Of a DNA stretch of 25,547 nucleotides, positions 2,941-24,127 are shown piece by piece (position 1 is the first letter of the stretch; the number at the start of each line of letters is the position of its first letter). Source of the DNA: a virus; IMG/VR virus record IMGVR_UViG_3300027881_000066, positions 1 to 25,547 of that record; one strand, given 5' to 3'. The translations under genes were made by a program, and so were the position numbers. A model generated the notes under the pieces. The model saw only the letters and a program-made list of their open reading frames with translations. It made no database searches and had not been told where the DNA came from.

Positions 2941-2964
2941 GCCTATATTAGCATATAGGCTATT
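2940..2964 (+). terminator. Perfect hairpin at the end of the zinc-ribbon gene
   Basis: AGCCTATAT (2940-2948) pairs fully with ATATAGGCT (2953-2961) around a TAGC loop, starting on the last base of the stop codon. The stem is AT-rich and only ATT follows, so termination would be partial at most; it may instead protect the mRNA 3' end or mark a processing point. Confidence 0.4.
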
Positions 2965-3022
2965 AAAGTATAATAAGATATACTGTATTGTACCTTCGTG
3001 CCACTTGGACTCACATCATAGG

Positions 3023-3175
3023 GCCCCATCAGCCTCTAACGTAGTTTGAGCCGGAAGGTAAACAGCCCCACCGTTTGCCTTACGGGCAAGGTTAATTTGC
3101 TGTTTAAATTGGCCTTGCAAAGAGGAACGACCAGAGCCTGTTAGGCCTTCGGGAGTGACGTGAACGTGATGGGGC
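3023..3175 (+). ncRNA. Candidate structured RNA with closing stem and pseudoknot
   Basis: This 153-base segment lies in a gene-free gap and folds by eye into a closed domain. GCCCCATCA (3023-3031) pairs perfectly with TGATGGGGC (3167-3175). Inside, CCTCT (3033-3037) pairs with AGAGG (3121-3125), CC-GGAA-GG (3051-3058) is a GNRA hairpin, and GCCT-GTT-AGGC (3136-3146) a small hairpin. Bases 3086-3098 pair with 3106-3118 in a 13-bp hairpin (two G-T pairs) whose whole 7-base loop GCTGTTT (3099-3105) complements AAACAGC (3060-3066). A competing hairpin TTGCC/GGCAA (3075-3079/3085-3089) allows a switch. It matches no class I recognise; it could be a riboswitch-like leader for the gene at 3194, a ribozyme, or a phage small RNA. 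Confidence 0.55.
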
Positions 3176-3193
3176 ACGGTAAGGGAGATTTTT

Positions 3194-3388
3194 ATGAGTA
3201 TGAAAAATGAACCGGACCAGTTATGGGCCGTGGATTCAGGCTTTGCCATGGGTGGTCTAATCATCCGTGATAATAAATGTATTGAATGTGCACCTATATT
3301 CCAACGATGGTTCGTAGGACGAACGACCGGCACGATCCGGCAGATGTGCCGGAACAAGGGATGGAAACTTTATGTTAGCAAATTATAA
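3194..3388 (+). CDS. Cys-containing miniprotein, 64 aa
   Basis: AGGGAG (3182-3187) six bases before the ATG decides the start; an in-frame ATG two codons on is an alternative. Residues hold Cys29-x2-Cys32 (CIEC) and Cys52, and a basic aromatic end (GWKLYVSKL). One CxxC plus one Cys could form a partial metal site. This is the first gene after the structured-RNA candidate, only 18 bases from its closing stem, so it would be the regulated gene if that RNA is a leader. It overlaps the next small gene by 17 bases. Family unknown. Confidence 0.6.
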   Translation: MSMKNEPDQLWAVDSGFAMGGLIIRDNKCIECAPIFQRWFVGRTTGTIRQMCRNKGWKLYVSKL

Positions 3389-3515: not shown

Positions 3516-3606
3516 AAAATGTGGTGCCCGAATTCTGGTACCTGCAACGAAGTGCCCCTTATGTGGGGGAACACTGAAGCCTGTGCTAAAAAAGGGAAAT
3601 GAATAA
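3502..3606 (+). CDS. Zinc-ribbon micropeptide, 34 aa
   Basis: The frame ATG 3502 to TAA 3604-3606 encodes 34 residues that are little more than a zinc ribbon: CEKC at residues 4-7 and CPLCGG at 18-23, with a basic tail (KPVLKKGNE). GGAG at 3487-3490 serves as ribosome site. It overlaps the gene before it, and its stop overlaps the HNH start (TAATG). This is the double-CxxC fold of the 'zinc-ribbon domain' type reduced to its minimum. The partner is unknown. Confidence 0.6.
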   Translation: MKQCEKCGARILVPATKCPLCGGTLKPVLKKGNE

Positions 3607-3932
3607 TGAAGATTGATTACAATCTCATAGATCATATAATCATGGATTGGGCAGCATTGCCTAAGGTAACCCGGATAGGGTTGAAGTTCAAACGGTTCTT
3701 CTGGCACTCATGGAAGCAGAAACAATACTGCCATAAATGTGGGCAGAGTTTTCACGGGTGCCCTGAGCAAATGGATCTGCACCATATTGATCCAGACAAG
3801 AAGGAATATTTGCTGGGGCAGTTGACGTTTGGGGTTTCAACAATAGCCAAGATCTACCCCGAATTAAGGAAATGCATCTGCTTATGTGCCAACTGCCATA
3901 GGACGTGGCATCGTAACCCACTGGATATATAA
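3606..3932 (+). CDS. HNH endonuclease (freestanding homing type)
   Basis: 108 residues. CHKC (42-45) is the first zinc knuckle, DLHHIDPDKKE (57-67) holds the HNH His pair and metal-binding Asp, and CLCANCHRTWH (92-102) gives the second knuckle with the conserved Asn and His. HNH nucleases of this layout nick or cut DNA using one metal ion, and freestanding copies in phages usually spread by homing. The start is fixed by the TAATG overlap with the preceding micropeptide. It ends the first gene block, directly before a hairpin and the second promoter, a typical junction position for such genes. Confidence 0.88.
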   Translation: MKIDYNLIDHIIMDWAALPKVTRIGLKFKRFFWHSWKQKQYCHKCGQSFHGCPEQMDLHHIDPDKKEYLLGQLTFGVSTIAKIYPELRKCICLCANCHRTWHRNPLDI

Positions 3933-3939
3933 GCAATAA

Positions 3940-3962
3940 AAGGGGTCCCAAACAGACCCCTT
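3940..3962 (+). terminator. 8-bp perfect hairpin closing the first gene block
   Basis: AAGGGGTC (3940-3947) pairs with GACCCCTT (3955-3962), loop CCAAACA. It follows the HNH stop by seven bases. There is no T tract, because its 3' arm runs into the TTGACA of the next promoter: two bases are shared. It may be a weak terminator, or an element whose folding as cruciform or RNA affects promoter use. Confidence 0.5.
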
Positions 3963-3988
3963 GACAAACCCAAAATAATGCTTATTAT
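3961..3988 (+). promoter_or_regulatory. Sigma70-type promoter, copy 2 of the phage promoter motif
   Basis: TTGACA (3961-3966), 16-base spacer, TATTAT (3983-3988). The block 3957-3976 is identical to 581-600, and GCTTATTA is also shared, with one base less in the spacer than copy 1. It precedes a leader of about 110 bases and the SPRY gene at 4109. Its close fit to the consensus predicts strong transcription by the host holoenzyme. Confidence 0.85.
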
Positions 3989-4108
3989 ATATATATGAGG
4001 CAACGACTTTAATACGAAATAAACTATGAGCCCTGTGAGAAATCTGGCCGGTGGCTGCTTTAGGCACCATGTCAAGGCAGCAGGGCAAACTACTTTAGAG
4101 GCTATACC
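3989..4108 (+). promoter_or_regulatory. Structured 5' leader of the SPRY gene, with a possible leader peptide
   Basis: Two nested stems are visible: GCCCT (4030-4034) with AGGGC (4082-4086), and GCTGCTTT (4054-4061) with AAGGCAGC (4074-4081; one G-T pair). A 28-codon frame (ATG 4026 to TGA 4110-4112) runs through it and overlaps the SPRY start as ATGA, but it has no clear ribosome site. The region could control translation of the downstream gene. Confidence 0.4.
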
Positions 4109-5298: not shown

Positions 5299-5374
5299 AG
5301 TTGTGTAGCTCAACGGTTAGAGCATCCGGTTGTCAGCCGGAAGGTTGCCAGTTCGAATCTGGTCACGACTGCCA
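5299..5374 (+). tRNA. tRNA-Asp (anticodon GTC)
   Basis: A full cloverleaf: acceptor AGTTGTG/CACGACT (one G-T), D arm GCTC/GAGC, anticodon stem TCCGG/CCGGA with loop TTGTCAG (anticodon GTC), variable AGGTT, T arm GCCAG-TTCGAAT-CTGGT, discriminator G and encoded CCA. It reads Asp codons GAC/GAT. The long open frame across it from 5193 is therefore not coding at that end. Confidence 0.95.
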
Positions 5375-5807: not shown

Positions 5808-6158
5808 ATGTTACATAAATGCAAGATGCATGGTATGACTGAGCACTCCAAAAGAAAAGATGGTTATTGGAGATGTAGGGCTTGTGCTATTGAAGCCGTT
5901 GCCCGGAGACGAAAGAAAATTAAACTTCTTCTCATTGAAGAGGGTGGTGGAAAATGTAAGAAGTGTGGGTACAACAAATGCCCTGCTGCACTGGAGTTTC
6001 ATCACAGAGATCCTACTGAAAAGGAAACCGTTAATCTTAAATCATGTTTGTCTATGAAGACGTTGCTAAAGGAAATAGCCAAGTGTGATCTGCTGTGTGC
6101 CAACTGCCACAGAGAAGAGCATTTTTCTTGGGACGGCTATCATAGTAGGATAGCATAG
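5808..6158 (+). CDS. HNH endonuclease, 3' end inside tRNA-Ile
   Basis: 116 residues; GGGGGAAA precedes the ATG by two to three bases. An N-terminal CRAC knuckle (23-26), CKKC (50-53), FHHRDPTEKE (64-73) and LLCANCHREEH (95-105) form the same zinc-stabilised HNH core as in the other copies. The C-terminal codons run into the tRNA-Ile gene: the last 15 bases (6144-6158), including the stop TAG, are the tRNA acceptor 5' strand and the start of the D arm. This looks like insertion of a mobile endonuclease gene right at a tRNA boundary. Confidence 0.88.
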   Translation: MLHKCKMHGMTEHSKRKDGYWRCRACAIEAVARRRKKIKLLLIEEGGGKCKKCGYNKCPAALEFHHRDPTEKETVNLKSCLSMKTLLKEIAKCDLLCANCHREEHFSWDGYHSRIA

Positions 6159-6221
6159 TCTGGCTAATGCACTCGACCGATAATCGAGAGATCGAAGGTT
6201 CGAATCCTTCTCCTACTACCA
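6144..6221 (+). tRNA. tRNA-Ile (anticodon GAT), unusual C33
   Basis: Acceptor AGTAGGA/TCCTACT, D arm GCAT/ATGC, anticodon stem CTCGA/TCGAG with loop CCGATAA, variable AGATC, T arm GAAGG-TTCGAAT-CCTTC, discriminator A, encoded CCA. The loop position before the anticodon is C where nearly all elongator tRNAs have U. All stems pair fully, so it is likely a real gene. Its 5' end is shared with the HNH gene. Confidence 0.9.
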
Positions 6222-6358: not shown

Positions 6359-6433
6359 GCCTTCAAAGCATTAACGGTGATGCACCGGTCTTGTAAACCG
6401 GAGAAGAGGGATCGTTACCTTCTGGAGGCTCCA
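6359..6433 (+). tRNA. Probable tRNA-Thr (anticodon TGT), atypical tertiary positions
   Basis: Acceptor GCCTTCA/TGGAGGC (one T-G), D arm GCAT/ATGC, anticodon stem CCGGT/ACCGG with loop CTTGTAA, short variable AGAA, T arm GAGGG-ATCGTTA-CCTTC, discriminator T, encoded CCA. Secondary structure is good. However, position 8 is A and 14 is T, and T-loop positions 54/58 are A and T: both usual U-A tertiary pairs appear reversed. It may be functional with odd tertiary contacts, or degenerate. Confidence 0.65.
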
Positions 6434-8130: not shown

Positions 8131-8160
8131 TTCATTTAGGACGATCAGGAGACAATGATC

Positions 8161-8628
8161 ATGGGAATATTAAAAGACGAAATAGGAAACACGTACAGCA
8201 GATTAACAGTTTTAGGACGTGCAGCTAATAAGGGCACCCGTGCTTGTTGGTTATGTCAATGTAGTTGTGGCAACACACACATTGTAACTGGCAAGTTACT
8301 TCGTTCTAAAGAGGTTAGATCGTGTGGCTGTTTGCATAAAGATGAAGTTAGAGAACGATTCCTAAAGCACGGGCACAATACAAAAAACGGCCCAAGCCCA
8401 ACCTATCACTCTTGGGCTGGTATGGTATCCCGGTGTACATACACAAAGCATGTTGGTTATCCTAACTATGGTGCCCGTGGCATTACCGTGTGTGAACGAT
8501 GGACTGACTTCACAAGATTTTTAAAGGACATGGGAGAGAAACCCCATGGCTTTTCCATATCCCGTATCGATCATGATAAGGGATACTACCCAGAAAATTG
8601 TGAGTGGGCCTTAAGGGGCACTCATTAG
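8161..8628 (+). CDS. AP2/HNH-type homing endonuclease-like protein
   Basis: 155 residues from ATG 8161; ATG 8155 is nearer the AGGAG (8147-8151) than usual, whereas 8161 has a 9-base spacing. The N-terminus (GNTYSRLTVLG) and a Cys cluster (CQCSCGNTH, SCGCLHKDE) are followed by HSWAGMVSRC, YPNYGARGITVCERW and SRIDHDKGYYPENCEWA. This combination is the widespread phage family annotated as HNH or AP2-domain endonuclease, in which RIDxDxxYxPxNCxW is the nuclease core. The gene sits alone between a terminator and a hairpin set, consistent with insertion as a mobile gene. Confidence 0.75.
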   Translation: MGILKDEIGNTYSRLTVLGRAANKGTRACWLCQCSCGNTHIVTGKLLRSKEVRSCGCLHKDEVRERFLKHGHNTKNGPSPTYHSWAGMVSRCTYTKHVGYPNYGARGITVCERWTDFTRFLKDMGEKPHGFSISRIDHDKGYYPENCEWALRGTH

Positions 8629-8723: not shown

Positions 8724-9284
8724 ATGACCGTAACAACTAAAGTAGAAGGCAGAGCATATGCCGACCTCAGTGTCTGGGGTAAAAGGTTCGATAAAAGAGC
8801 CATGAAGGAACTTGCTGGGTATCTGAGTTCTCGTAACCTTGGTGTCACACAGGCTGGTGTTTATACCACCAACGATCCGGTCACCACAGGAACAAACCCG
8901 ATTATGATTAACGGTGTTTACATCCCGGCCCTGACAGCCGAAGCCAATGCTGACTGGTCTGATGCAGACACAGCCAGTACCATCGTAACTGGTGACATGA
9001 GAGGGGTTACTCTGGCAACGACTTACAGCCAGTGGATTATGATGCTTGCCCGTTCTTCCGGCCTGCTTCAAGTCCTTTCTGCCAGTGCACAGGTTCTGGA
9101 TGCTGCTATTGCTGCAGCCATTAAGATTCCTAAATGGGATGCCAGCACGTATGCTCCGATTGCCCTGCACAGCATTGATGCCACAACCGTGACATTTGGA
9201 ACAACTGACATTGGCTCTGCTATGGACACACCATATCAACTGCTTGGTCAGGTTCTTCCTCACCCCGACAACTTTGCTAACTAA
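8724..9284 (+). CDS. Putative virion protein, paralogue A (186 aa)
   Basis: AAAAAGGAA supplies the ribosome site. The first 36 residues (MTVTTKVEGRAYADLSVWGK, then RFDKRAMKELAGYLSS) and the last 15 (YQLLGQVLPHPDNFAN) closely match the next gene; the middle differs. The middle is Ala/Thr-rich beta sequence, consistent with a surface-exposed virion part, such as a head decoration or tail protein. It ends 15 bases before its partner, and a strong terminator closes the pair, which suggests a dedicated, abundant transcript. No family recognised. Confidence 0.75.
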   Translation: MTVTTKVEGRAYADLSVWGKRFDKRAMKELAGYLSSRNLGVTQAGVYTTNDPVTTGTNPIMINGVYIPALTAEANADWSDADTASTIVTGDMRGVTLATTYSQWIMMLARSSGLLQVLSASAQVLDAAIAAAIKIPKWDASTYAPIALHSIDATTVTFGTTDIGSAMDTPYQLLGQVLPHPDNFAN

Positions 9285-9299
9285 TAGGAGACATACAAT

Positions 9300-9860
9300 A
9301 TGACTGTTACAACTAAAGTTGAAGGCAGAACATATGCCGACCTGAGCACATGGGGAAAGAGATTTGATAAACGGGCTATGAAAGAACTGGCTGGTTATCT
9401 GTCTTGTAACAACCACGAAACTCAGGCAATCACGTTTTACAATGATGGTGATGACAATGACATCCAGTCTACCGGAACAAAGGTAGCTATGGTGAATGGT
9501 GTTCTTATTCCATCACTGCCCGTTGACACCGTTCTGGTTATCACTGACCAGCTTACCGGTGACGGTGCTGACCTTGAAGTAGCCGATGGCTATGAGATGA
9601 ACTATCTTGTGCTGGCAACAGCCGGTGGAGTTCTATCCACATGGCAGGCCGGTGTACAAGCCACAACTGGCAACTCTGAAGTCAAGTTCCCGAAGTTTGA
9701 TACCAGCCTGTACGTAGGTGTTGGACTCATTCTGTGGGACAACGATGATGCCTCTGCTGCTGGAAACCTTGGTGATGCTGCTGCTGACCTGAATACTGAT
9801 GGTACCTTCTATCAGCTACTTGGGCCGACTCTGCCTCACCCGGATAATTTTGCTAACTAA
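9300..9860 (+). CDS. Putative virion protein, paralogue B (186 aa)
   Basis: Exactly the same length as the preceding gene, with matching ends (MTVTTKVEGRTYADLSTWGK..., ...FYQLLGPTLPHPDNFAN) and a different, more acidic middle (DGDDNDIQSTGT, DNDDASAAGNLGD, AADLNTDGT). A tandem duplication followed by divergence of the central segment explains this. The conserved ends probably anchor both proteins in the same place of the virion while the middle is exposed. An intrinsic terminator follows 12 bases after the stop. Function unknown. Confidence 0.75.
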   Translation: MTVTTKVEGRTYADLSTWGKRFDKRAMKELAGYLSCNNHETQAITFYNDGDDNDIQSTGTKVAMVNGVLIPSLPVDTVLVITDQLTGDGADLEVADGYEMNYLVLATAGGVLSTWQAGVQATTGNSEVKFPKFDTSLYVGVGLILWDNDDASAAGNLGDAAADLNTDGTFYQLLGPTLPHPDNFAN

Positions 9861-9925: not shown

Positions 9926-11626
9926 ATGGCCGAAAAATTTATAGACATTCTGATGAATGTCAACAACACAGAAATCAGACAGGCTCTTGAAGCCATGTTT
10001 AATATCGTTGGTGTTGGAAAAGACGATACGTCTGAAACTACAAAAGAGATCGTTGGTGATATCACGGGTGACGTGACAGGAGATCTTACCGGGGATGTAA
10101 CCGGAGATGTAACCGGTGATCTTACCGGAGACGTGACTGGTGATGTTACGGGAAACGTAACTGGTAATGTGAATGGAAACGGAACCCTTGGAACCCTTAC
10201 CCTTGACACGATGACCCCGGTGAATGCCGTTGCTGCTGCTGCCAAGCTAACGTCTTCTGGTGCTATGCAACCGGCTGTCCATGCCGTGTCCGTACTGACA
10301 AATGATACCACGGATATTGATGACACCAAGATAGTTACAATCGGTACCACCGTGTACAGATTTATGACCACCCCGGCCCAAGCATACGATGTCTTACGTG
10401 GAACCAGTGCTGCTAACTCTATTGCCAATCTGGCTGCTGCTATTAATGCTTCCGGTACTGGTGATGGGTCTGACTACTTTGCTGGTACACTGGCTCACCC
10501 GACTGCCTATGCCTCAGCCTCTGATGCCACAACCCTAACGGTTCAAGTTCTGATCCCCGGAGACGAGCAAAATGCTGCCGTCACAGAATCCGATGATGCA
10601 GGCTGGACATGGACAGGTGCTGACTTTGCAAATGGTACCGTAGCTGGTGTGACTTCGGCTGCTGCCACATTAACAATAGGCACCCGTGTCTACACAGTTG
10701 TTGATGAACTGTCTGAGACTAATGCTGTTGCAATCGTTGACCAGATTCTTTATGGTGGTGATGAAGCCACGTTGCTGGACAATATGCTGGTTGCCATTGA
10801 TGCTGGTGCCACAGAGGGCACGAACTATTCCACCGGCACAGTTGTGAATGCTGATGTTGAAAGTGGAGTAAACACAAACACAACCCAGATCGTAATTGCA
10901 CTTGTCAAAGGTGTTATTGGAAATGCCATAGCCATTGAGTGCACATGGGCCAACACTGACTGGGACGATGAAGTAACAAACGTCTTGGGTACAGAGGTTG
11001 CCGGTGTTGATGGCACCGTTGGATCTAAGGGACAGATTGCATGGGATGCTTCCTATGCATACGTCTGTATCCTTGCTAATACAATAGCTGATGCTAATTG
11101 GGAGAAGACCCCCATCTCAGGCACTGGTGTTCTTACCACTGATATACTTGGTAACGTAACCGGTAACGTAACTGGATCTGCCAGTGAAGTACCCGGAGAT
11201 GTTAACTTCTCTGCAAAGCTGAATGCAGCCCAAGAGAATATCACCCACTCGACCGATGTAACCATTGTATTTGATACTGAAGACTTTGACAACGGCTCCA
11301 ACTTTAATGTAGCTACTGGCATCTTCACAGCACCGGATACTGGAATATATCAGCTTAATGTTGGTGTACGTTTGGTCAACGTGGATGTTGATGCTGACTA
11401 CGTGCTGGTTGTATTGGTTACCCCAAGCAAGAATATAACAATCGGTATCATCGATCCCGGTTCTATACTGTCTGCTGACACAGATGCCTTCATGATTTTC
11501 AATGGTGGAGCCACTGTTGCACTAACTGCTGCTGATGAATGCTATGTGTATATACGTTCACAAGCTGGTGCATCTCAGGTTGACGTTCATGCATCGTCTG
11601 GTTTTTCTGGACACAAAATAAGCTAA
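9926..11626 (+). CDS. Tail/fibre-like protein: GDVT repeats, duplicated domain, C1q-like end
   Basis: 566 residues with four parts. Residues 1-40 are helical. Residues 43-86 are about ten tetrapeptides of the form G-D/N-V/L/I-T, a low-complexity stalk. The middle holds two related copies of a beta domain, each with an iGTxVY start (VTIGTTVYRF, LTIGTRVYTV), an xNLxAAINA-type helix (ANLAAAINA, DNMLVAIDA) and an Asp/Trp end. A short second GNVTGNVT run precedes a C1q/TNF-like jelly roll at about 425-566 (VTIVFDTEDFDNGSNF, GIFTAPDTGIYQLNV). C1q domains trimerise; with the stalk this suggests a trimeric fibre or virion spike that binds a receptor. The exact place is unknown. Confidence 0.75.
   Translation: MAEKFIDILMNVNNTEIRQALEAMFNIVGVGKDDTSETTKEIVGDITGDVTGDLTGDVTGDVTGDLTGDVTGDVTGNVTGNVNGNGTLGTLTLDTMTPVNAVAAAAKLTSSGAMQPAVHAVSVLTNDTTDIDDTKIVTIGTTVYRFMTTPAQAYDVLRGTSAANSIANLAAAINASGTGDGSDYFAGTLAHPTAYASASDATTLTVQVLIPGDEQNAAVTESDDAGWTWTGADFANGTVAGVTSAAATLTIGTRVYTVVDELSETNAVAIVDQILYGGDEATLLDNMLVAIDAGATEGTNYSTGTVVNADVESGVNTNTTQIVIALVKGVIGNAIAIECTWANTDWDDEVTNVLGTEVAGVDGTVGSKGQIAWDASYAYVCILANTIADANWEKTPISGTGVLTTDILGNVTGNVTGSASEVPGDVNFSAKLNAAQENITHSTDVTIVFDTEDFDNGSNFNVATGIFTAPDTGIYQLNVGVRLVNVDVDADYVLVVLVTPSKNITIGIIDPGSILSADTDAFMIFNGGATVALTAADECYVYIRSQAGASQVDVHASSGFSGHKIS
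10055..10182 (+). repeat. 12-bp coding repeat (GDVT tetrapeptides)
   Basis: Degenerate 12-base units such as GGT GAC GTG ACA and GGA GAT CTT ACC, about ten copies, encode G-D/N-V/L/I-T. Synonymous codons vary between units, so the protein repeat is being kept and the DNA is not a recent slip product. The repeat forms the stalk of the fibre-like protein. Confidence 0.85.
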
Positions 11627-12582: not shown

Positions 12583-13248
12583 ATGGCTGATACATGGCAT
12601 AATCCGGCACCGGATGTGAGTTGGAATGGGGATGTATGGAAGAATGCCAATCACCCGGACGGTGACATCTGGATGGCCTTAGCTACCCTGTTTGAGGAAG
12701 AGTCCTCATGGCATATTCAGAATACATGGTTCGAAGAGACTGCATGGCATATTCAAAACCTGCTGGAAGATGAAATCTCATGGCATATCCAGAACCTCAC
12801 AGAGGATGAGACTGCATGGTACATCCAAAATGCCACTGCCGACGAAGTTGCATGGCACATACAGAATTTGACTGAAGACGAGATTGCCTTTCACATCCAG
12901 AATGCAACGTCTGATGAAACAGCTTGGCATATTCAGAATCTATTGCAGCAGGCAACTGCTTGGAACATCTTTGAAAACGTCATTAAGTTCCTTGCCCTCT
13001 TTCATATCAATCCACTCACTTCATCATTCAAGCTGGAAGCACTTACATCTCAATTCACCTTTGATAAGCTGCAGTCCACCTACACACTTCTTGAGAACCT
13101 TGCCTCACAGTATGGCATTGAGTTCCCTCTGGTCAGTACCTTCGATGTTGATCCGGTTCTTGCTCAGACTTTTGAAATCGATGAAGAGGTTCACACAACC
13201 AAGAAAATTCAACCAAACGAATCTGGGACTAAGAGTCCCTACGAATAG
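12583..13248 (+). CDS. WHIQN 12-residue-repeat protein
   Basis: 221 residues; CAGGAG (12572-12577) upstream. After a Trp-rich head, eight exact 12-residue units run from residue 42: aromatic residues at 43, 55, 67, 79, 91, 103, 115 and 127, each as (S/A)-W/F-H/Y/N-I-Q-N followed by an acidic linker (LTEDET, ATADEV). A second, looser 9-10-residue beta repeat follows (LTSSFKLE, LTSQFTFD, LQSTYTLLE, LASQYGIEF, LVSTFDVD). Such regularity suggests an elongated solenoid or stacked beta/helix rod in the tail or fibre. No membrane segment. Family not recognised. Confidence 0.75.
   Translation: MADTWHNPAPDVSWNGDVWKNANHPDGDIWMALATLFEEESSWHIQNTWFEETAWHIQNLLEDEISWHIQNLTEDETAWYIQNATADEVAWHIQNLTEDEIAFHIQNATSDETAWHIQNLLQQATAWNIFENVIKFLALFHINPLTSSFKLEALTSQFTFDKLQSTYTLLENLASQYGIEFPLVSTFDVDPVLAQTFEIDEEVHTTKKIQPNESGTKSPYE
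12706..12996 (+). repeat. 36-bp tandem coding repeat, eight units
   Basis: Eight 36-base units encode the WHIQN repeat. Period is exact across the array, and the conserved part of each unit reads like GCATGGCATATTCAGAAT with synonymous changes between units. The acidic linkers vary more. No frame slip or extra base is seen, so the protein period is under selection. Confidence 0.88.
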
Positions 13249-13259
13249 GAGATATCCAC

Positions 13260-13733
13260 ATGGCTTCAAATTGTGTATTCACATTAACCGGGGGAGCAGC
13301 AAACTCTGATCCGAATGCTTCACTTGGTGGTGATGGTAGTTCTGAGATCATAAGTACAACCCCACTGCATAATTTATTCTATACTGTCAGCCCACCGGAT
13401 ATCACCGGGTCCAACTATATAACCTACCGGGCCATTGACATTCTCAACAACGGTGATGCCACAGCCAAGCTGGTGGAGTTCTACTGCACTGACACAGTTA
13501 ATGCTGAGTCGGTCATTGCTATTTGGTATGAGGCAGCACCCAGCCAGTCCATTGTCGATGAAGACACTGAGCCCATCGGGGCAAGCTGGTCCCTACCGTT
13601 GGTAGGAAGCAGAACATCCATTGCAGACATTGCTGCTGCAGCACGGGCCCGTATCTGGATCAGACGGACAGTCGATCAAGATGCCGATAACTTAATTGAT
13701 GACGAAGCTGTACTCCATTGTTGGTTTGCCTAA
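13260..13733 (+). CDS. Putative virion protein, all-beta
   Basis: 157 residues, TAGGAGATA as ribosome site. Short beta strands with Gly/Asp/Ser turns (CVFTLTGGAANSDPNASLGG, NYITYRAIDILNNGDATAKL) and an end with RARIWIRRTVDQDADN are typical of phage minor structural proteins. No signal or metal site. The stop overlaps the following HNH start (TAATG), so that gene lies inside the structural operon. No family recognised. Confidence 0.62.
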   Translation: MASNCVFTLTGGAANSDPNASLGGDGSSEIISTTPLHNLFYTVSPPDITGSNYITYRAIDILNNGDATAKLVEFYCTDTVNAESVIAIWYEAAPSQSIVDEDTEPIGASWSLPLVGSRTSIADIAAAARARIWIRRTVDQDADNLIDDEAVLHCWFA

Positions 13734-14095
13734 TGCCAAGACCACTACCAAAAACCTACATAGGTTGGTGCACGGCATGTGGCAGGGACGTGGTCAAATA
13801 TAAGAGTTCACGTAACTGTGTTGAATGTCGTAGCAAGAAACGAGTTGCTTGGAAACAAGCATGGCTGGAGTGGCTACACACTAACTATGATTTAAAATGT
13901 AATCGGTGTGGGTTTAGTACTTTTGCTGCTATGCAATTTCATCACGTAGATCCTAATAAGAAGGAGTTCACCATATCTCCACTTGTTAACGGTCAGTATG
14001 CCCTGAACGACAGAAACATTGAAAGGGTAAAACACGAAATAGATAAGTGTGAGATACTATGTGCTAACTGCCATATGATTGAGCACTACTCTTAA
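13733..14095 (+). CDS. HNH endonuclease inside the structural operon
   Basis: 120 residues from ATG 13733, which overlaps the upstream stop; five codons further upstream are open (ATG 13718) but lie within the preceding gene. CTAC (13-16), CVEC (29-32) and CNRC (56-59) are zinc knuckles, FHHVDPNKKE (69-78) holds the HNH His/Asp pair, and EILCANCHMIEH (106-117) the Asn/His part. This is the same family as the copies at 3606, 5808 and 23777. A freestanding nuclease between two virion genes is a usual site for homing genes. Start of the fibre gene follows after 13 bases with its own ribosome site. Confidence 0.88.
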   Translation: MPRPLPKTYIGWCTACGRDVVKYKSSRNCVECRSKKRVAWKQAWLEWLHTNYDLKCNRCGFSTFAAMQFHHVDPNKKEFTISPLVNGQYALNDRNIERVKHEIDKCEILCANCHMIEHYS

Positions 14096-23650: not shown

Positions 23651-23763
23651 GACCAGATCGTAACAGCTAACCTATAATCTGCTGTCACCATTCGTGGTGC
23701 CAGTACGATTAAGGGTATGTGGGTTGTGTGGGAGTAACTCCCCCACTTCCCACAGCCCCATAC
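23641..23763 (+). other. Hairpin cluster downstream of the capsid gene
   Basis: Four successive hairpins: CGATCT/AGATCG (23641-23646/23655-23660, spanning the capsid stop), ACAGC/GCTGT (23663-23667/23681-23685), CACCA-TTCG-TGGTG (23686-23699), and a large one from 23715 to 23763 (GTATG/CATAC, GGG/CCC, TTGTG/CACAG, inner GGGAG-TAA-CTCCC). The last is followed by AAAAAGG, not T. It is probably a message-stabilising or processing element, or a pausing site, rather than a standard terminator. Confidence 0.6.
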
Positions 23764-23776
23764 AAAAAGGAAACCT

Positions 23777-24127
23777 ATGGCTACATATGAATGTTCGTAC
23801 TGTGGCAACGAGTTTAATCGTAAGCCCAGTCAGGTAAAACGTAGTTCCAAAATCTATTGTTCTTTGAAGTGTGTTGGTTTAGATAGACAGACTTCAGATG
23901 ATTATAGAAAGCATCAACGGAGACAAACCAGACGATACTTAGACTTCCGTGAGGAATGTCTTGAAGCCGTAGGGTATCAATGTTCTTGCTGTGCTGAAGA
24001 TGACATAATTTGTTTAGACCTTCACCACAGAGAACCTATTGAGACTCACCCGGAGCTATCGTTTGAAACCACTAACATTAAAGTCCTATGTGCTAATTGT
24101 CATAGGAAAATCCATAGAGGGGAGTAA
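23777..24127 (+). CDS. HNH endonuclease after the capsid gene
   Basis: 116 residues; AAAAAGGAAA before ATG. CSYC (6-9) and a second Cys pair (YCSLKC) lie in the N-terminus, CSCC in the middle, LHHREP gives the HNH His pair, and VLCANCHRKIH the Asn/His motif. It belongs with the copies at 3606, 5808 and 13733. The position between major capsid and the next head gene, following a hairpin cluster, is the classical insertion point for a freestanding homing nuclease that would favour a conserved head gene as target. Confidence 0.88.
   Translation: MATYECSYCGNEFNRKPSQVKRSSKIYCSLKCVGLDRQTSDDYRKHQRRQTRRYLDFREECLEAVGYQCSCCAEDDIICLDLHHREPIETHPELSFETTNIKVLCANCHRKIHRGE

Follow-up and report, generated by a model that had tools for sequence, protein, structure and literature searches.

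A well-folded orphan RNA candidate in front of a run of small genes in a viral contig

The window, which here means the whole stretch of 25,547 nt that was analyzed, is a 25.5-kb viral contig that stems from a survey of environmental DNA. Its right side carries genes for the terminase, the capsid and further proteins of the head and of packaging, and its left side many small genes on the + strand. In a ranking over the listed ORFs and tRNAs, the longest gap inside the contig is a gene-free one of 253 nt flanked by a zinc-finger ORF upstream and a 64-aa ORF downstream. A candidate structured RNA had been placed in a gene-free region by an earlier inspection of the letters (the sequence-only reading), and the gap at 2941-3193 bears this out. 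The RNA is oriented in the same direction as the surrounding genes, and same-direction genes run on from it through the rest of the contig. The features of the locus are as follows.

2940-2962, + strand: A+T-rich hairpin of 9 bp, located where the upstream zinc-finger ORF has its stop codon and not followed by a U-run (sequence, fold)
2941-3193, + strand: gene-free gap holding the RNA (gap ranking over listed ORFs and tRNAs)
2969-2974, + strand: TATAAT, bordering the stretch of highest A+T content in the window and possibly a -10 box, with no good -35 box (sequence, A+T ranking)
3021-3178, + strand: structured RNA candidate of roughly 155 nt (z -3.61, 0/200 shuffles; no meaningful Rfam match)
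3180-3186, + strand: TAAGGGA, Shine-Dalgarno stretch of the next gene, just 3' of the closing stem (sequence)
3194-3388, + strand: first gene after the RNA, an ORF of 64 aa for which no relatives are known

The distance from the Shine-Dalgarno stretch to the ATG of the 3194 gene is normal. The 60 nt with the highest A+T content in the contig (80%) begin at position 2917, beside repeats. The TATAAT at 2969 was absent from the output of the promoter scan, which also found no promoter with a proper -35 box in front of the RNA. A T7-like promoter in GACTCACATCATAGGG was rejected, as no second copy was found. There is no U-run terminator between the RNA and the 3194 gene, and the only + strand terminator-like call within the RNA is a weak hairpin at 3074-3090 that is predicted to be unformed. 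The cumulative GC skew has no minimum at the RNA region. Tiny cysteine-rich ORFs (77, 69, 47, and 34 aa) are found on both sides of the RNA between 2501 and 3606, and several of the tiny ORFs in this interval carry CxxC pairs and are zinc-ribbon-like.

All pairings named in the sequence-only reading exist at their coordinates, as confirmed by a script that asserts each base pair. The elements within the RNA are listed below.

3023-3031 / 3167-3175, + strand: 5' and 3' arms of a 9-bp closing stem (base-pair script)
3033-3037 / 3121-3125, + strand: inner 5-bp stem, CCTCT paired with AGAGG (base-pair script; predicted at about 0.5)
3050-3059, + strand: GGAA (GNRA) hairpin GCC-GGAA-GGU, only 3 bp, -2.0 kcal/mol
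3051-3085, + strand: hairpin A, CCG..AGGUAAAC / GUUUGCCU..CGG with the 9-nt loop AGCCCCACC, -14.0 kcal/mol, predicted at about 0.97
3060-3066, + strand: AAACAGC, upstream strand of a possible pseudoknot, complement of the loop at 3099-3105
3086-3118, + strand: hairpin B, 13 bp perfect or 14 bp with a G-U pair, -15.1 kcal/mol, predicted at about 1.0

Hairpin B consists of arms at 3086-3098 and 3106-3118 and the loop GCTGTTT at 3099-3105. It is directly abutted by hairpin A, which has 11 bp around a 2x2 internal loop; each of the two hairpins is predicted at a probability of at least 0.96. Around 40 further bases follow the hairpin pair inside the closing stem. A TTGCC (3075-3079) and a GGCAA (3085-3089) are also present in the sequence. 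The closing stem has a probability near 1.0 (0.55 for its last pair) in folds of 3021-3205 and 3000-3230, and when the folded stretch is widened to 2976-3260 the values are ≈0.76 for the closing stem and 0.4 for the inner stem.

The sequence-only reading had proposed that the loop of hairpin B forms a pseudoknot with the upstream AAACAGC. The 7-nt complement does exist, but hairpin A uses the AAAC of this strand together with the greater part of the GNRA hairpin, and so excludes both. The fold with hairpin A has an energy of -63.0 kcal/mol, compared with -56.3 kcal/mol for the best fold in which both pseudoknot strands are open and -53.9 kcal/mol for the full fold proposed earlier. A 7-bp helix contributes about -11 and the pseudoknot penalty is near +9.6, and with these values the pseudoknot fold is estimated to lie ≈5-7 kcal/mol behind the hairpin A fold. 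The pseudoknot (3060-3066/3099-3105) is therefore possible but not favored, and it is not the predicted ground state (hairpin A at ≈97%, -63.0 vs. -56.3 kcal/mol). The suggestion of an alternative fold that competes with the first, with the pseudoknot kept in either, finds no energetic support, the TTGCC/GGCAA hairpin being predicted at ≈0. The overall fold is supported in part: its stems are present, but hairpin A, the competitor for the pseudoknot strand, had been missed. It is in our view very unlikely that the RNA represents a new phage RNA class in which the 7-bp loop pseudoknot and hairpin A would form a two-state leader setting the expression of a small-protein operon.

The predicted folding energy of 3021-3178 on the + strand is -62.9 kcal/mol (z -3.61), more stable than all of 200 dinucleotide shuffles, a comparison that the sequence-only reading had proposed and that the RNA passes. 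The - strand counterpart has a z of -2.14, the wider cut 3010-3190 gives a z of -2.58 with 2 of 200 shuffles reaching its stability, and hairpins A and B alone (3051-3118) give a z of -4.25. Among shuffles, 0.55% contain a perfect hairpin of 13 bp or more, and 0.05% contain a hairpin of 10 bp or more with a loop for which a 7-nt Watson-Crick complement exists elsewhere; the true significance of all these chance tests is lower, because they were run on a stretch picked by eye. A stability scan of the + strand (155-nt windows in steps of 100 nt) placed the RNA stretch among the five most stable windows for their composition. Some of the other, equally scoring windows lie within genes or between tRNAs, and stability alone is therefore no proof. 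The RNA is a well-folded orphan candidate that is more structured than chance.

No Rfam 15 family matched over the RNA at gathering scores. Only meaningless matches were obtained at E-values up to 10, the sole one over the RNA being on the other strand (E 8.9) and far below the threshold. Together with the stability against shuffles, this supports the original description of a structured RNA candidate that matches no known class. The stretch CCGGAAGGUAAACAGCC in the RNA resembles CCGGAAGGAAGCAGCC, which we take to be a conserved part of SRP RNA helix 8, and bacterial SRP RNA was rejected because the remainder of helix 8 cannot form and the SRP families of Rfam gave no match at E-values up to 10. 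Retron msr-msd RNAs have an outer inverted repeat, then GC and a long hairpin, an arrangement that is also seen here with a repeat of 9 bp; a retron RNA was rejected as RVT_1 (reverse transcriptase) is absent from the contig. A TnpB omega RNA was discarded since PF07282 is likewise absent, with positive controls in both cases.

The put RNAs of HK022 measure ≈70 nt and are built from two adjacent stem-loops that follow early promoters; putR lies ≈270 nt downstream of the site where its transcript starts (PMC9378689). Hairpins A and B are by prediction also two abutting stem-loops (3051-3118, 68 nt), but unlike HK022 put this pair sits within two outer stems and lacks an evident promoter or terminator partner. 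We located HK022 putL via the residues named in PMC9378689 and found no likeness to this one put sequence (alignment score 17 vs. a mean of 16.9 for shuffled putL), and a put RNA by sequence was rejected since this score is on par with that of shuffled putL. The RNA is in none of the named families tested, and its position and shape are like those of known phage leader RNAs. As seen in phages for structured 5' leaders and for mRNA hairpins between cistrons (processing or stabilizing elements), it lies between genes on the same strand, has strong hairpins and is followed right after by a ribosome-binding site. It is larger and more complex than a simple hairpin.

Neither phages nor plasmids contained a relative of the RNA according to blastn, and exact 17-mers gave only three chance matches in viral contigs. 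Peptide patterns from a - strand reading of the RNA found nothing in viral or GTDB genome contigs. The whole records of relatives were searched by DNA and by a covariance model built from the single sequence, which reaches near relatives only, and this search, run without a positive control, gave nothing credible. With the covariance model on 163 collected sources, the best foreign match had an E-value of 7.2 and was inside a gene, and a 71% match in another sequence (L129) was rejected as it is also located inside a gene. No relatives were found when the 3194 ORF and the SPRY protein were used as neighbor anchors, and the DUF1353 protein led to distant phages only, among the matches listed. 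The capsid protein search gave 80 viral contigs and two distant prophages (Litchfieldella and Aeromonas). The proteins of the left arm of the window have almost no matches among these capsid-gene relatives, and most of the close relatives are short pieces covering the surroundings of capsid and terminase. Those that were fetched appear to leave out the genome arm that carries the RNA, and given that most are such short pieces, the RNA region seems to be unsampled in relatives rather than lost.

Several other features of the contig were recorded. Near-identical copies of CCTTGACAAACCCAAAAT.A.TGCTTATTA are found at 581-621 and 3957-3996; they contain a strong match to a promoter of the sigma-70 type (TTGACA-16-TATTAT at 3961) and probably mark two transcription units. 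A hairpin at 3940-3962, AAGGGGTC-CCAAACA-GACCCCTT, has AAACAG in its loop region and could pair through this loop with the CTGTTT that lies 850 nt upstream in the loop of hairpin B; only on the - strand does the 3940-3962 hairpin score as a terminator, and no - strand gene is apparent there. The left arm contains three tRNA genes, Asp-GTC (5299-5374), Ile-GAT (6144-6221), and Thr-TGT (6359-6433), and the 137-nt gap between the last two is very stable. Five free-standing HNH endonuclease genes are present in 25 kb (3606-3932, 5808-6158, 8155-8628, 13718-14095, and 23777-24127), four of which share a TATGTGCYAAYTGYCATAG-like stretch (LCANCH). The HNH gene at 23777 lies between the capsid gene and the next gene; one relative (L005) has none at this place and another (L011) appears to carry a different one. 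Two tandem paralogous genes of 186 aa (MTVTTKVEGR.YADLS.WGKRFDKRAMKELAGYLS) are located at 8724-9284 and 9300-9860, and the first, which was scanned, has no PHROG match. In-gene repeats are seen at 10052-10188 and 12687-12968, with units of 12 nt (GDVTGDLTG) and 36 nt (WHIQN).

The simplest reading of the RNA is that of a structured element that acts in cis within a phage messenger RNA, either as a leader or between cistrons, and we give this reading about an even chance of being right. As in leaders generally, the RNA is on the same strand as a gene that it directly precedes, with no terminator between them. It would be transcribed together with the small-protein operon starting at 3194, and in the cell it would fold around a core of the tandem hairpins A (3051-3085) and B (3086-3118) within the domain closed by the 9-bp stem. 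This domain would end just before the ribosome-binding site of the 3194 gene, so that the fold would leave this site outside. We infer that the RNA would then most likely act on its own transcript, with the message behind it receiving a 5' end that is defined, protected or processed. The cis-acting reading is favored by a + strand fold that is far better than those of the shuffles and better than that of the - strand, and by the z of -4.25 for A and B; against it stand the lower probabilities of the closing and inner stems in the longer fold, the missing -35 promoter and the orphan sequence. The RNA may equally sit inside a longer operon.

Behind the capsid gene, a strong hairpin is found both here (23714-23764) and in the twelve relatives looked at (L005, L010-L029). 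The stems of these hairpins differ greatly in sequence, and an alignment of nine sequences gave little usable covariation. Intercistronic structures seem to be normal in this phage group, and the hairpins behind the capsid gene of relatives fit such a general use.

If the RNA were instead processed from the transcript and worked in trans as a free-standing molecule, its compact shape, its 9-bp closing stem and an apical loop (GCTGTTT) that is free to pair would suit this role, and a matching AAACAG is at hand in the loop of the hairpin at 3940-3962. The RNA has no 3' terminator, however, and runs directly into the ribosome-binding site, and since the contig has nine copies of AAACAG on its + strand this match may be due to chance; we consider a trans-acting RNA unlikely. 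The inverted repeats could also act at the DNA level, as an origin or a protein-binding site, or the stability could have arisen by chance without any function. The neighboring 60 nt of highest A+T content (80%, from 2917) beside repeats, the lack of known relatives and the equal scores of other windows, some of them within genes, would agree with this. Yet the + strand is clearly more stable than the - strand, none of 200 shuffles is as stable and the cumulative GC skew has no minimum here, which makes such an explanation quite unlikely.

Abutting hairpins that span 68 nt, close to the ≈70 nt of HK022 put (PMC9378689), could bind the transcribing polymerase and cause read-through of terminators further down, and the same-direction genes do continue to the contig end. 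But the score against putL is no better than that of its shuffled versions, outer stems are foreign to put and no clear + strand terminator that would have to be overcome was found nearby, so we regard a put-like function as decidedly unlikely. Pairing of 3060-3066 with 3099-3105 might alternatively work as a switch, in which the pseudoknot disrupts hairpin A, leaving CCUUAC (3078-3083) free to mask the Shine-Dalgarno GUAAGG (3179-3184). Loop complements of this kind are rare in shuffles (0.05%) and the match of CCUUAC to GUAAGG is exact, but the fold is predicted to be several kcal/mol worse. Similar 6-nt matches upstream of the ribosome-binding site are seen in 6 of 42 contig genes, which puts the anti-Shine-Dalgarno pairing within chance, and it was rejected; the switch as a whole we hold to be very unlikely.

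As a single sequence without relatives, the RNA is a lead for probing and not yet a class. If the fold and an effect on expression were confirmed, the cis-acting element would be an unclassified structured leader from a phage group for which metagenomes are the main source of knowledge, and a possible case of phage transcripts being controlled by RNA only.
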